Below the pieces are notes generated by a model that worked only from the letters and a program-made list of their open reading frames with translations, did not search any database and was not told the DNA's origin. Shown piece after piece: positions 44,530 to 48,169 of a stretch of DNA of 48,169 bases. Position numbers and translations under genes: made by a program. Position 1 is the stretch's first letter, and every line of letters starts with the position of its first letter. Source of the DNA: a virus; IMG/VR virus record IMGVR_UViG_3300027974_000052, positions 1 through 48,169 of that record, one strand, 5' to 3'.

Positions 44530-47500
44530 TTATCCTGCTTCTTTTAATGTCCTACCAAATGCCCCCTCAGCGCCTAGTGGTATGCCAGGCATCCATGCTG
44601 GTTCTTTGCACAGCTCTGCAATAATAAAGTCTAAGGCTTTTTGGGCTTCATCTTCAGGAACTACACAATAACAACTATCATGGATAGTTAGGGCGATCTT
44701 ATAGCGCTTGGTGATTCTCACCATCGCTTCTCCCATTATACACCTTGCTAAAGCCTGCACACAGTTATGCACAATAAAAGGCCCCGTTTTCCCAAGAACT
44801 ACAAAACGAGTTAAAGGCCCACAATCCATTATGTCGTAAACTTTTCTTTCTTGTTCGCGAAGTCTGGTTTTCTTAACAACTCCTCTAAAGGCCACCCCGC
44901 TTTTAATCTGTTGTATATAGTAGTACGCCCTATACCCGATTGTTTTGATAAAGTTGGCACATCTATTCGGATAGTGTTTCTTTTGTTCATCATGTTCTGC
45001 CTTGGCGTTGTCCAATGGCAGTTCTCTTTGTAATACCCTAAATTGTTGTCTATTCGATCTAATTGCAGCCCCTCCTTGTAGGTGTCCTTCATATCCTCCC
45101 AAAAATTTTCGAATGATACCTTCCATGCTTCGCACACTAAAATTCCCCTCCCCCCATAGTTTGCAAAGGCCTTGTGATTCTTGTTCCCACATCGTTGTTT
45201 CATACTGTCCCATACATGATAAGCTAAATGCTTGCTCATTCCATGAGTGCGGTTTTTTTCTGCTACTAATCTTTTGGAAGCGCATCCACAATTTGGAAGC
45301 CCTCCCCTTTTTATCTCCTTTTTTACATCGCTCCCTGACTTTATGCAGGGATTTCCACAAGCGCACAAAAAATTCCAGTGTCTTTTTTTCCCATTTGAGT
45401 GCGCCGCAGATGTCGTTAAGAGTAGACCAAATGTCTGGCCTGTAAGGTCTTGGGTTCGATGATGCAGTTTTCCATCCTTCATTTGTTAATACCTCATGGT
45501 CTGGAGTCATAAATACCCCATCTATACTAACACATGATTGTACAGATTGAAACACCACTCCCCTATGAGATACAAATGAATCCCCATCATGCACTTTGTC
45601 TCGTAAGGTAACTGTCTCTATAGCCTTCCATCCTGAATCAGTAAGTACTAATGTCCCTTCAGATAAGCAATTTTGCACAACTTTTCCAGAATATATCTTA
45701 CGGCGCGAACCTCTATGGCTAGCGTACGTCCACTCCGTACCTGTCTCGGTGCGCATTTCTTTTAAATCAGGGTATTTTAAATAGAGGCCTGAGGGCAACA
45801 ACACTCCCCTCCTGCCCGCTACAAGTAAGTTAATCGTGCCAAAGGTTGCCGCTACATTGTCGCGCATATCTTTTAATACTTGCCCCCCCTTAGCCCACGT
45901 ATTTTTAACCTCGCTAAACTCTTCCCTGTATAAGTCTACAATGCGTGTTGCCTCTGCCGCACCTATATCTGTGCCCGACATAGCTCTAATAGACTCTCTT
46001 AACTTAGCTGCCCCTGTGCCAAAGCCAAGCCCAAGAACACAATTTAGGACTAGCACATTTCCAGCGGTGAATCGTTTTCTAGGCCCTGCGTCTAATATGT
46101 CATAGACTCTAGCCTTGCTTTTAGCACTTTCCAATTTTTGCGCTTGTTGTGCACTGACTCCCATGCTTGTTGTATTATGTCTTCCCCTGTCAACCCTAAA
46201 CGCACATACTTTCGAACCGTGGACATTTGAGTGTAGGGGTTTTCGTTCCATAGCGCGGCTAGAATTAACGCACCTTTCCAATCCACAAACACAGTATTTC
46301 GTCTGTTTTGTATTTGCTGCTGCCGATTTGCTAAACGCAAATTTGTTTTTGTATATCCTTTGTTGTTGTCCACTCTGTCTATTTCTACCCCCTTGTAGTC
46401 TTTGTGGGGTAAATGTTTTTCTACCCATAGAATAAACTCCATTCGGGAGGCAAACTCGCAGTGTATCCCCCGCCCTCCATAATTCGGGTAGTTCCTGTTT
46501 TTGGGGTTTTGGCATCGGGCTATAATGGCATCGTACCTTCGACCTAAAGTTTCTGAGTGTTTTGATTTTGTTTGGGAGCATGATTGACACCCTTTTGTCC
46601 TCCCCCGAGTAAGAGAAGACTTGTTTATCCATTTCTCCATTCCACATTGAGTACACTTTACGTACACATAGATGCTCTTTCCTTGGCGGGTTATTTTGTC
46701 TGAAATAATCTGCACTAACCCGTATTGCCCGCCCACTAGCTCCTGTTCTAATAAGGGTTTCCATTCTGGATGCTGCGACCCCGAAAGGAATCGGCCCTTG
46801 CTCTGTGAATACACCGTGGTCTTCGGTAGCGGTGAGCCCATTGTAAGTGATGACATTTTTTTCCCCTTGATAAATTACCCCTTTATGAGACACCCATTCT
46901 ACCCCGTCCCATACCCTATCTTCAAGAGTTACTTTTTCTATAGCCTTTTCACCATGATTAGTTAGCACTAATGTGCCCTCGGCAATGCAGGTTTTCCCCA
47001 CAAAGCGTTGGTCTTTTGTTACTTCATCATAGGGTACTTTAAACGCAGATGCAGCAAAGTCTTTATATAGGTCTTTACCTTCAGCAATAATCTTAAGCTT
47101 ATCGAACTGTCCTGAAAAATATAAACTCACTCTTAGCTCTATATTGCTTAAGTCAGCACCCACTATAACGTGTCCTTCTGGGGCTTGTATAGCCGATTTA
47201 ATAGGTGATGTTCTAGGGATGTTCTGCATATTAAACGATACCCCACTCCACCTACCCGATACATCTGCGCCATAATATTTAAGCGGTATAGGCAGGTATC
47301 TATTTGCATGAGCAATCTCTATAAAAGTTTGGGTGCGGGTCTCTTCTATAGTAGATTTAGTGCCTAGTCTAGCCGCAACAATAGCTTGAACGTCAAAGTC
47401 TGGATAGTCTAATAATGCTTTCATATCCTCGTCAGTCTTAGCGAAGGCGTATGTTTCCTTACCCGTTGTCGGGCTTATCTTCATAGGCGGTACTACCCCA

Positions 47501-48169
47501 TGCGATCTTAATACATCAGCGAATTTAGGATTAGACATTAAATCTTCTTTAGCCATACCGCTAGCTGCCAGTAGGTCTTCTTTGCGCCTTTTGGTATGGT
47601 GTAAGTGATCCTCTAGCGTAGGCAGGTCTAAGATAAAACTAGGCTCTGTGTGCATACGTATAGTCATATCAATGAGCTTTATCTCAATCCTATTAAAGTG
47701 TGGAGCCAAGTGGTTGAATAGCCCGCGAGTCAACTCTACATCGTTTATGCAGTACTGGCCGTACTTAGCTAGTTCTTCTTCACTAAAGTCTACTCGCCTA
47801 ACTCCCATAGCACTGACTACTTCAGTACCTTTCTGCCCTAACTCATAATGCTCCGCTAGTTTAGCAAGTGACCCCCCTACTTCTGTGCCATGCACTGCCC
47901 TAGCCATAGACAAAGTGTCTATCCATAATTTAGGCTTTATGCCAAACTTCCACGTTAAAATAGTGGCATCAAATAGAGTGTTGTGGGCATAAACCCAGGA
48001 ACTTTCCCAATCAAACTGGGTTAACCATTTATTAGTCTCCTCCATTGTCCCGCTGAACCATTCAGCAGGGGCTTCATTTACTTTTACTGCTACTCCGATA
48101 ACCTCGAAGAGTGGGTGATCTATGTACTCTTGAGTACTTATTTTTGAGAGACTGTATTTTTTGTCGTAA
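44530..48169 (-). CDS. DNA polymerase, family A, interrupted by two inteins; 5' end outside window
   Basis: This is the replicative polymerase with a 3'-5' exonuclease domain. The frame is open to the window edge: beyond the ATG at 48045 it continues upstream with YSLSKISTQEYIDHPLFEVI and VGVAVKV, ordinary exonuclease-domain sequence, so the true start is missing. Visible motifs are Exo II AHNTLFD (Asp 47968-47970), Exo III YCINDVE, polymerase motif A VGADLSNIELRV (Asp 47152-47154), O-helix QRFVGKT/CVLGLGFG split by intein 1, NCVQALAR split by intein 2, and motif C TIHDSCY (Asp 44677-44679; the usual Glu is Ser). The spliced exteins in view total about 594 residues, a normal T7-like size. Activity requires both inteins to be removed. 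Confidence 0.93.
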   Translation of the reverse strand, partial: YDKKYSLSKISTQEYIDHPLFEVIGVAVKVNEAPAEWFSGTMEETNKWLTQFDWESSWVYAHNTLFDATILTWKFGIKPKLWIDTLSMARAVHGTEVGGSLAKLAEHYELGQKGTEVVSAMGVRRVDFSEEELAKYGQYCINDVELTRGLFNHLAPHFNRIEIKLIDMTIRMHTEPSFILDLPTLEDHLHHTKRRKEDLLAASGMAKEDLMSNPKFADVLRSHGVVPPMKISPTTGKETYAFAKTDEDMKALLDYPDFDVQAIVAARLGTKSTIEETRTQTFIEIAHANRYLPIPLKYYGADVSGRWSGVSFNMQNIPRTSPIKSAIQAPEGHVIVGADLSNIELRVSLYFSGQFDKLKIIAEGKDLYKDFAASAFKVPYDEVTKDQRFVGKTCIAEGTLVLTNHGEKAIEKVTLEDRVWDGVEWVSHKGVIYQGEKNVITYNGLTATEDHGVFTEQGPIPFGVAASRMETLIRTGASGRAIRVSADYFRQNNPPRKEHLCVRKVYSMWNGEMDKQVFSYSGEDKRVSIMLPNKIKTLRNFRSKVRCHYSPMPKPQKQELPELWRAGDTLRVCLPNGVYSMGRKTFTPQRLQGGRNRQSGQQQRIYKNKFAFSKSAAANTKQTKYCVCGLERCVNSSRAMERKPLHSNVHGSKVCAFRVDRGRHNTTSMGVSAQQAQKLESAKSKARVYDILDAGPRKRFTAGNVLVLNCVLGLGFGTGAAKLRESIRAMSGTDIGAAEATRIVDLYREEFSEVKNTWAKGGQVLKDMRDNVAATFGTINLLVAGRRGVLLPSGLYLKYPDLKEMRTETGTEWTYASHRGSRRKIYSGKVVQNCLSEGTLVLTDSGWKAIETVTLRDKVHDGDSFVSHRGVVFQSVQSCVSIDGVFMTPDHEVLTNEGWKTASSNPRPYRPDIWSTLNDICGALKWEKKTLEFFVRLWKSLHKVRERCKKGDKKGRASKLWMRFQKISSRKKPHSWNEQAFSLSCMGQYETTMWEQESQGLCKLWGEGNFSVRSMEGIIRKFLGGYEGHLQGGAAIRSNRQQFRVLQRELPLDNAKAEHDEQKKHYPNRCANFIKTIGYRAYYYIQQIKSGVAFRGVVKKTRLREQERKVYDIMDCGPLTRFVVLGKTGPFIVHNCVQALARCIMGEAMVRITKRYKIALTIHDSCYCVVPEDEAQKALDFIIAELCKEPAWMPGIPLGAEGAFGRTLKEAG
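44764..45669 (-). other. Intein 2 at the polymerase C-terminal Q motif
   Basis: This is a 302-residue intein between GKVVQN and CVQALARCIMGEAM. Block A is CLSEGTLVLTDSGWKAIETV (Cys1 at 45667-45669), block B is MTPDHEVLT, block F is KVYDIMDCGPLTRF and block G is GPFIVHN with the standard penultimate His; Cys+1 follows. It is clearly related to intein 1: C..EGTLVLT..G.KAIE.VTL.D.V.DG...VSH.GV is shared. Its B-to-F interval in the polymerase frame is again a basic, Cys-rich linker that overlaps an HNH gene in the +1 frame. All residues expected for splicing are present. Confidence 0.94.
44829..45482 (-). CDS. HNH homing endonuclease nested out of frame in intein 2
   Basis: This is a 217-residue protein in the +1 frame within intein 2. 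GAGGT lies about eight bases before ATG 45482, and both the site and the start are made of codons for intein block B (PDHEVLTNEG). The conserved part begins almost at once: LTGQTFGLLLTTSA, then a zinc-ribbon-like LCACG...NCGCA. The HNH core is VWDSMKQRCGNKNHKAFANY, GGRGILVCEAW, LQLDRIDNNLGYYKENCHW. The C-terminal TLSKQSGIGRTTIYNRLKAG is a NUMOD-like helix-turn-helix. The stop lies in block F. It is divergent from the 46092-46856 protein despite the same fold and position. Confidence 0.92.
   Translation of the reverse strand: MKDGKLHHRTQDLTGQTFGLLLTTSAAHSNGKKRHWNFLCACGNPCIKSGSDVKKEIKRGGLPNCGCASKRLVAEKNRTHGMSKHLAYHVWDSMKQRCGNKNHKAFANYGGRGILVCEAWKVSFENFWEDMKDTYKEGLQLDRIDNNLGYYKENCHWTTPRQNMMNKRNTIRIDVPTLSKQSGIGRTTIYNRLKAGWPLEELLRKPDFANKKEKFTT
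46042..46989 (-). other. Intein 1 in the polymerase O-helix
   Basis: This is a 316-residue protein-splicing element inserted between QRFVGKT and CVLGLGFG. Block A is CIAEGTLVLTNHGEKAIEKV with Cys1 (46987-46989). Block B is TATEDHGVF, with the TxxH pattern. Block F is RVYDILDAGPRKRF. Block G is AGNVLVLN followed by Cys+1. The terminal Asn (46042-46044) and both nucleophilic Cys are present, but the penultimate His is Leu, a known tolerated variant in some inteins. Between blocks B and F the polymerase frame encodes a basic, Cys- and Gln-rich linker unlike any endonuclease. An HNH gene occupies the +1 frame there. Confidence 0.93.
46092..46856 (-). CDS. HNH homing endonuclease nested out of frame in intein 1
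   Basis: This is a 254-residue protein in the +1 frame relative to the intein on the same strand. AAGGGG lies eight bases before ATG 46856; a GTG at 46736, directly before the conserved part, is an alternative start. Residues about 40-95 form a zinc-ribbon-like region (VKCTQCGMEKW, GCQSC). Residues about 105-185 are the LDRIDN-type HNH core: RYDAIIARCQNPKNRNYPNY, GGRGI, EIDRVDNNKGYTKTNLR. The end is a helical DNA-binding region (ALILAALWNENPYTQ). The first 40 residues are the alternative reading of the intein N-terminal blocks. The stop falls inside intein block F. Presumed to cut an intein-less polymerase allele. Confidence 0.9.
   Translation of the reverse strand: MSSLTMGSPLPKTTVYSQSKGRFLSGSQHPEWKPLLEQELVGGQYGLVQIISDKITRQGKSIYVYVKCTQCGMEKWINKSSLTRGRTKGCQSCSQTKSKHSETLGRRYDAIIARCQNPKNRNYPNYGGRGIHCEFASRMEFILWVEKHLPHKDYKGVEIDRVDNNKGYTKTNLRLANRQQQIQNRRNTVFVDWKGALILAALWNENPYTQMSTVRKYVRLGLTGEDIIQQAWESVHNKRKNWKVLKARLESMTY

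Follow-up and report, generated by a model that had tools for sequence, protein, structure and literature searches.

Putative HNH homing endonuclease genes nested out of frame within inteins of phage DNA polymerases

Full-length inteins that carry a homing endonuclease domain in frame with their splicing domain are well known, HNH-containing ones included, and structures such as that of PI-SceI (1dfa) are available. In a second arrangement, the fractured genes reportedly described by Dassa et al. in 2009, an HNH or other homing endonuclease gene lies between the two halves of a split intein. The closest published case that we found to the locus described here is neither of these, but the ShiLan insertion in phage DNA methylases, in which an HNH gene lies out of frame within an open host gene; it was proposed to be a homing element, and the question of its translation was raised (PMC11855218, 2025). 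Those insertions have no detectable splicing domain and no detectable ribosome-binding site (PMC11855218).

The stretch of DNA analysed here, the window, is an IMG/VR virus contig of 48,169 bases, and its right end carries on the minus strand a gene for a family A DNA polymerase with two in-frame inteins, each of which has an HNH gene nested within it (Table 1). Like inteins with an in-frame endonuclease, these have a Hint domain, endonuclease DNA between blocks B and F, and presence/absence polymorphism. Here, however, the nuclease is not a domain of the intein but the product of a distinct gene that overlaps it in a different frame and has its own putative start, and the in-frame translation of the nuclease DNA is not conserved. 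With the ShiLan insertions the locus shares an HNH gene hidden out of frame within an open host gene. In the present case, though, the HNH gene is carried by an intein with a splicing domain, and a ribosome-binding site is both visible and apparently under selection. Fractured genes find their counterpart in four related loci (L051, L054, L059 and L106), where an HNH gene separates the intein halves, whereas each window intein is one continuous open frame rather than the two separate ORFs of a split intein. The same +1 nested arrangement is present in an isolate, phage APSE-1, as P45 (polymerase) and P46 (HNH; NC_000935). These are merely annotated as overlapping ORFs, with the P46 start placed 228 nt downstream of the conserved one, and we found no dual-coding analysis of them. 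That annotation aside, a partial literature search returned no description of an out-of-frame nuclease inside a continuous intein, and priority is uncertain.

Table 1. Positions of the polymerase gene, its inteins and the nested nuclease genes in the window
Feature	Position	Strand	Support or remark
Family A DNA polymerase, outer frame, two in-frame inteins	44530..48168	-	open at contig end
Intein 1, 316 aa, Cys1 ... LN, +1 Cys	46042..46989	-	boundaries from sequence
AAGGGG, Shine-Dalgarno-like, 6 nt upstream of ATG 46856, in YQGEKN codons	46863..46868	-	sequence; L140, L158 similar
Nested HNH endonuclease gene 1 (putative), 254 aa, +1 to intein 1, ends TAG 46092	46092..46856	-	phrog_374, 2.2e-30
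Intein 1 block B, GLTATEDHGVFTEQG, dual-coding with nested gene 1 N-terminus	46795..46839	-	sequence
Intein 1 block F, VYDILDAG; nested gene 1 ends inside, TAG over Leu-Asp codons	46084..46107	-	sequence
Intein 2, 302 aa, Cys1 ... HN, +1 Cys	44764..45669	-	boundaries from sequence
GAGGT, Shine-Dalgarno-like, from Glu-Val codons of intein 2 block B (DHEVLTNEG)	45491..45495	-	sequence; Glu codon conservation
TAA in nuclease frame, one codon upstream of nested gene 2 ATG	45486..45488	-	sequence
ATG, putative start of nested gene 2, from Asn-Glu codons (AAT GAA) of block B	45480..45482	-	sequence; codon conservation
Nested HNH endonuclease gene 2 (putative), 217 aa, +1 to intein 2, ends TAA 44829	44829..45482	-	phrog_374, 7.4e-54
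Intein 2 block F, VYDIMDCG; nested gene 2 ends inside, TAA over Ile-Met codons	44818..44841	-	sequence

We propose that these are homing endonuclease genes translated on their own from within inteins that splice, a reading to which we give a probability of roughly 0.8. The nesting itself, selection on both frames and selected start codons in relatives of intein 2 are evident from the sequences, and the intein fold is predicted from them; initiation, splicing, cleavage and homing we infer.

The polymerase ORF matches Pfam DNA_pol_A (1.5e-19), a 3'-5' exonuclease (1.5e-5) and the phrog_17 DNA polymerase family (1.2e-70). Intein 1 is inserted at GKT/CVLGLGFG and intein 2 at KVVQN/CVQALARC, and both match splicing-domain profiles (N domain 101 bits and C domain 37 bits for intein 1; 108 and 58 bits for intein 2), while Pfam and NCBIfam recognised inteins and nested nucleases poorly. 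Intein 2 has the hallmarks of a class 1 intein: Cys1, block B TPDHEVLT with its His, block F, and IVHN/C at the C-terminal junction. Its outer frame is predicted to form a Hint fold; the AF2 model has pLDDT >90 at residues 1-80 and 272-302 and superposes on the Mtu RecA intein (3ifj_A) with Z 15.5 over 112 aligned residues at 1.9 A, and the out-of-frame middle is predicted to be disordered. Intein 1 ends in VLVLN/C (46042-46050), with Leu in place of the usual penultimate His that its relatives retain (KLVHN/C), and because of this replacement its splicing is less certain and may be altered. For the nucleases, structural modelling was less informative: the HNH model has pLDDT 75 and matched an HNH nuclease, 4h9d, at only Z 4.0, among other weak matches. 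A weak profile match links the nested HNH to I-HmuI (1u3e, E 0.0056).

Group I introns of phages often carry HNH genes, those of DNA polymerase genes included (PMC3428280), and the inserts might be such introns, removed at the RNA level. The depositors of Sodalis phage SO-1 annotated a related nested ORF in this way, as a type I self-splicing intron (gp38/gp39, L216:1002-4190), although no Rfam intron RNA was found there. Across the window and 11 related loci, searches for a group I or group II intron RNA core gave no Rfam match at the gathering threshold. The outer frame is free of stops, though introns need not be open, and it encodes N and C domains with conserved splicing motifs and a predicted Hint fold. 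Moreover, five short versions without an HNH gene, mini-inteins of 113-135 aa (L044, L068, L089, L092 and L168), keep the intein domains and the frame. An intron is hardly credible on this evidence, and we regard the inserts as inteins.

How, then, would the nested genes be translated? The first-pass annotation had proposed that block B codons of intein 2 double as ribosome-binding site and start codon of the nuclease gene, and the sequence bears this out: the block (TPDHEVLTNEG) contains the codons CAT GAG GTA TTA ACA AAT GAA, in which GAGGT is followed, after an 8-nt spacer, by an ATG in the +1 frame. The synonymous choices that create these signals are conserved across relatives. Where block B contains HEV, Glu is encoded by GAG in 25 of 26 relatives, against 16.4 expected from extein usage (P 4.5e-5), and the Asn or Asp codon that supplies the ATG is AAT or GAT in all 25, against 7.2 expected. 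Comparison with other codons of the same inteins gives Fisher P values of 3.7e-5 for GAG and, against other Asn/Asp codons, 2.7e-11 for AAT/GAT; all of these P values are upper estimates of the strength of the effect because the relatives are not independent.

In intein 1 (TATCAAGGGGAAAAAAATG), AAGGGG is followed by a seven-A run ending in ATG 46856, again in the +1 frame. Here the earlier description needs amending, since these signals, correctly placed in the YQGEKN codons, are not part of block B: the ATG lies about 15 nt upstream of that block, within which substitutions in relatives keep to the phase of the intein frame. In L140 and L158 the nested gene has its start at the equivalent position, preceded by AAAGGAG and AAAGGGG respectively and followed by the same MSS N-terminus, and neither has the A-run. 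This shared start favours ATG 46856 over GTG 46736, an alternative suggested earlier, which does exist but has its AGGAG only 3 nt upstream and is the weaker candidate. The absence of the run at homologous starts also disfavours the suggested role for slippage at the A-run.

Start positions fall into discrete sets by family. Besides the intein 2 type at the Glu-Val of block B, a second set, L008, L010 and L036 among them, uses Glu-Gly-Trp at the end of block B, and a third, in Streptococcus and Gardnerella phages, uses Lys-Glu-Val upstream of block B, the Gardnerella phage having AAAGGAGGT 8 nt before the ATG. Mean Shine-Dalgarno duplex energies in the +1 families are -7.1 to -8.2 kcal/mol, compared with -5.1 kcal/mol for synonymous shuffles. 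Locus by locus the same test is rarely significant (median P about 0.25), but it has little power, and the codon-specific test is more informative. L143 and L144 have no good Shine-Dalgarno at the conserved position. For the +2 nested genes, conservation of DGxEWV is uninformative on the starts because its Glu-Trp codons always yield ATG or GTG.

The main competitor to internal initiation is a +1 frameshift by ribosomes translating the intein, with the A-run in intein 1 as one conceivable site, so that the nuclease would be made only as a fusion. That run, and the single frame relation common to all +1 cases, would suit such a mechanism. However, 62 of 79 +1 cases have a nuclease-frame stop no more than 30 nt before the start (no more than 12 nt in 35 of 79), leaving almost no room for a shift, and in intein 2 the TAA one codon before the ATG would block frameshift entry from further upstream. 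The existence of +2 nesting, the loss of the A-run in L140 and L158, and selection on the start and Shine-Dalgarno codons also count against it. We consider it very unlikely that frameshifting is the sole source of the nuclease, as had been raised in the first-pass annotation; the nearby stops instead favour internal initiation.

Both frames are under selection. For each nested ORF, the nuclease protein was rewritten in synonymous codons sampled from the polymerase exteins, and outer-frame stops were counted. None occurs in 88 nested ORFs, against an average of 9.1 expected per ORF. In L040, whose nested genes are identical to those of the window, 19.6 would be expected in gene 1 and 17.6 in gene 2, and there are again none. 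Ten free-standing HNH relatives, by comparison, have 4-29 stops in the corresponding frame, around or above expectation, and thus no avoidance. Conversely, given the outer protein, 4.3 nuclease-frame stops are expected per ORF and none is seen.

Between related inteins, most substitutions in the two splicing domains (N and C) affect outer codon position 3. Within the nuclease body most affect outer position 1, the third position of the nuclease codons; in one +2 pair, those in the nuclease body fall at outer position 2. The phase shifts near the end of block B and reverts at the nuclease stop. Mean amino acid identity is 52% in the nuclease frame but 27% in the outer frame of the same DNA, compared with 55% in the intein N domain. 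Together, phase and identities show that the ends are selected as intein and the middle as nuclease, the outer frame of the middle merely being kept open.

Such conservation bears on whether the nested nuclease might be a pseudogene, a former in-frame endonuclease domain shifted by an indel. Inteins often lose endonuclease function, and broken nucleases do occur among the relatives, in L031 and L032 and in L028. These are exceptions, in which the nuclease is lost while the intein is kept; elsewhere the nuclease frame is conserved over its whole length and its start sites are selected, and none of the 119 inteins yielded an in-frame homologue. A decayed in-frame domain is highly improbable, and we continue to regard the nested ORFs as genes.

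The ends of the nested genes are less constrained than had been suggested. Both had been said to stop at the same point of block F, within VYDI. In fact, the stop of the second nuclease gene overlies Ile-Met and that of the first Leu-Asp, one codon later, and among relatives the stop varies in position, some nested genes ending ahead of block F and others close to block G, so that its placement in VYDI is not conserved.

A DNA similarity search of the phage collection gave no matches, and for that reason relatives were sought by protein, with HNH searches and an N splicing-domain profile, and annotated with HMMs. Nested HNH genes were found in 119 distinct intein sequences, 109 of them at +1, 10 at +2 and none in frame. 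An apparent in-frame HNH piece in L042 was discounted, as it lies downstream of a frameshift in that contig, as were frame-0 entries for L051, L054 and L059, which belong to the second intein of each. The nested set, +1 and +2 together, includes the isolates APSE-1 and APSE-2, Shewanella phage SFCi1, Caulobacter phage RLK, Streptococcus phages Javan113 and Javan255 and Gardnerella phage AB1; prophage or MAG contigs are also represented. About 166 isolate phage records carry the +2 form, and 145 of these bear the name of a Salmonella phage (for example SETP3); in the 30 records whose annotation we read the product is nearly always given as just DNA polymerase or intein-containing DNA polymerase. 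In SETP3 (L209, 3001-3900) the polymerase intein conceals a +2 HNH ORF of about 250 aa, as do those of Salmonella Jerseyvirus and related phages; the gp34 helicase of SETP3 is annotated with a Hint domain too.

Nesting also occurs outside a single polymerase site. At L020:4799-5554 a +1 nested HNH intein interrupts a SNF2-type helicase rather than a polymerase. The L009 and L077 contigs each have a second nested-HNH intein (L009:7886-8806 and L077:7292-7931), located in another gene or polymerase copy. Three single polymerase genes (L063:2747-4474, L076:4001-6127 and L085:2756-4924) each have one +2 nested intein and one +1 nested intein or its remnant.

Close relatives of the window offer a glimpse of gain and loss. 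L031 and L032 carry copies of intein 1 that differ at 10 of 948 nt (the L031 copy is 98.9% identical), and one of these differences turns a Tyr codon of the nuclease into a stop while causing only a Cys to Gly change in the open intein frame. Similarly, L028 has an internal deletion in the nuclease and retains the intein frame. Both L031 and L032 lack intein 2, and their empty site differs from the occupied one at 11 of the 29 nt upstream and at 5 of the first 6 nt downstream, compared with about 6% elsewhere. The flanks compared were the 45640-45760 region of the window and L031:4770-5376, and the differences include a Thr to Cys replacement at the +1 residue. This divergence around the insertion site is the pattern expected of co-conversion during homing and may have arisen in that way, or by another history.

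The two window nucleases do not appear to share an immediate origin. In the HNH tree the intein 1 type (support 98/95) adjoins the nucleases of split inteins (98/94), the +2 type stands apart (100/99), and the intein 2 type falls among free-standing phage HNH genes (100/95), although the intein 2 nuclease was the main query used to sample the latter, and the inner branches of that group are weakly supported. The first-pass annotation had taken the coincidence of the nested genes' limits with conserved splicing motifs as a sign of one ancestral design; as the nucleases fall in different HNH clades, such a design is unsupported. Descent of both nested pairs from a single ancestral nested intein would account for their homologous N splicing domains, their HNH nucleases of phrog_374/3377 and their common +1 relation. 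Nevertheless, the intein 1, intein 2 and +2 types separate in the tree and the start positions differ by family, and we think single descent unlikely, while leaving it an appreciable chance. We favour repeated separate captures, with convergent use of upstream intein codons for initiation. The free-standing HNH genes, for their part, may have escaped from a nested ancestor.

At a third polymerase site (GRWSGC...HNS) the arrangement takes a split form (L051:1-1154, L054:1880-2832, L059:13-965 and L106:2775-3733). The N half stops shortly past block B, the HNH ORF overlaps it at +1, and the C half is in the third frame (+2), starting over or near the end of the nuclease; in three of the four, the C-half ATG (ATG-LVPVYDI) lies 19 nt before the end of the HNH stop. 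It is tempting to speculate that out-of-frame nesting is a widespread and stable form of endonuclease carriage in phage inteins, reached by separate HNH lineages with ribosome-binding sites drawn from N-splicing-domain codons, and that it is a step toward split inteins, of which these four loci would be the next; for this wider proposal we put the chances at even. If it is true, separate starts for the nuclease and the C half would make the continuous outer frame dispensable, and a natural split intein would result.

We propose a model where each intein is a splicing-competent mini-intein, composed of a half with blocks A to B and a half with blocks F to G. In this model, an entire HNH homing endonuclease gene sits in another reading frame between blocks B and F, where inteins usually carry their endonuclease. 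A single mRNA would be read in two ways. Ribosomes in the polymerase frame would read through the nuclease region, producing a long unstructured linker, after which the intein would splice itself out. Other ribosomes would initiate within the intein, at the Shine-Dalgarno and ATG, and release a free HNH nuclease; the initiation site would be made of codons of the N splicing domain, from block B in intein 2 and from the strand just upstream in intein 1. The nuclease would then cut polymerase alleles that lack the intein, leading to the whole element being copied in.

In a broader context, a homing endonuclease can, on this model, occupy an intein without being part of the intein protein. One stretch of DNA would specify two proteins, with the ribosome-binding site itself written in the codons of a splicing motif. 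This would explain why many phage inteins of about 300 residues have a long middle with no recognisable domain, and it predicts unannotated nucleases in the about 166 sequenced isolates. The start site is visible and can be mutated silently, and so bears on the question raised by the ShiLan insertions of how hidden HNH genes are translated. Finally, nested inteins may offer a concrete and testable route from continuous inteins to split ones, which are themselves widely used as tools.
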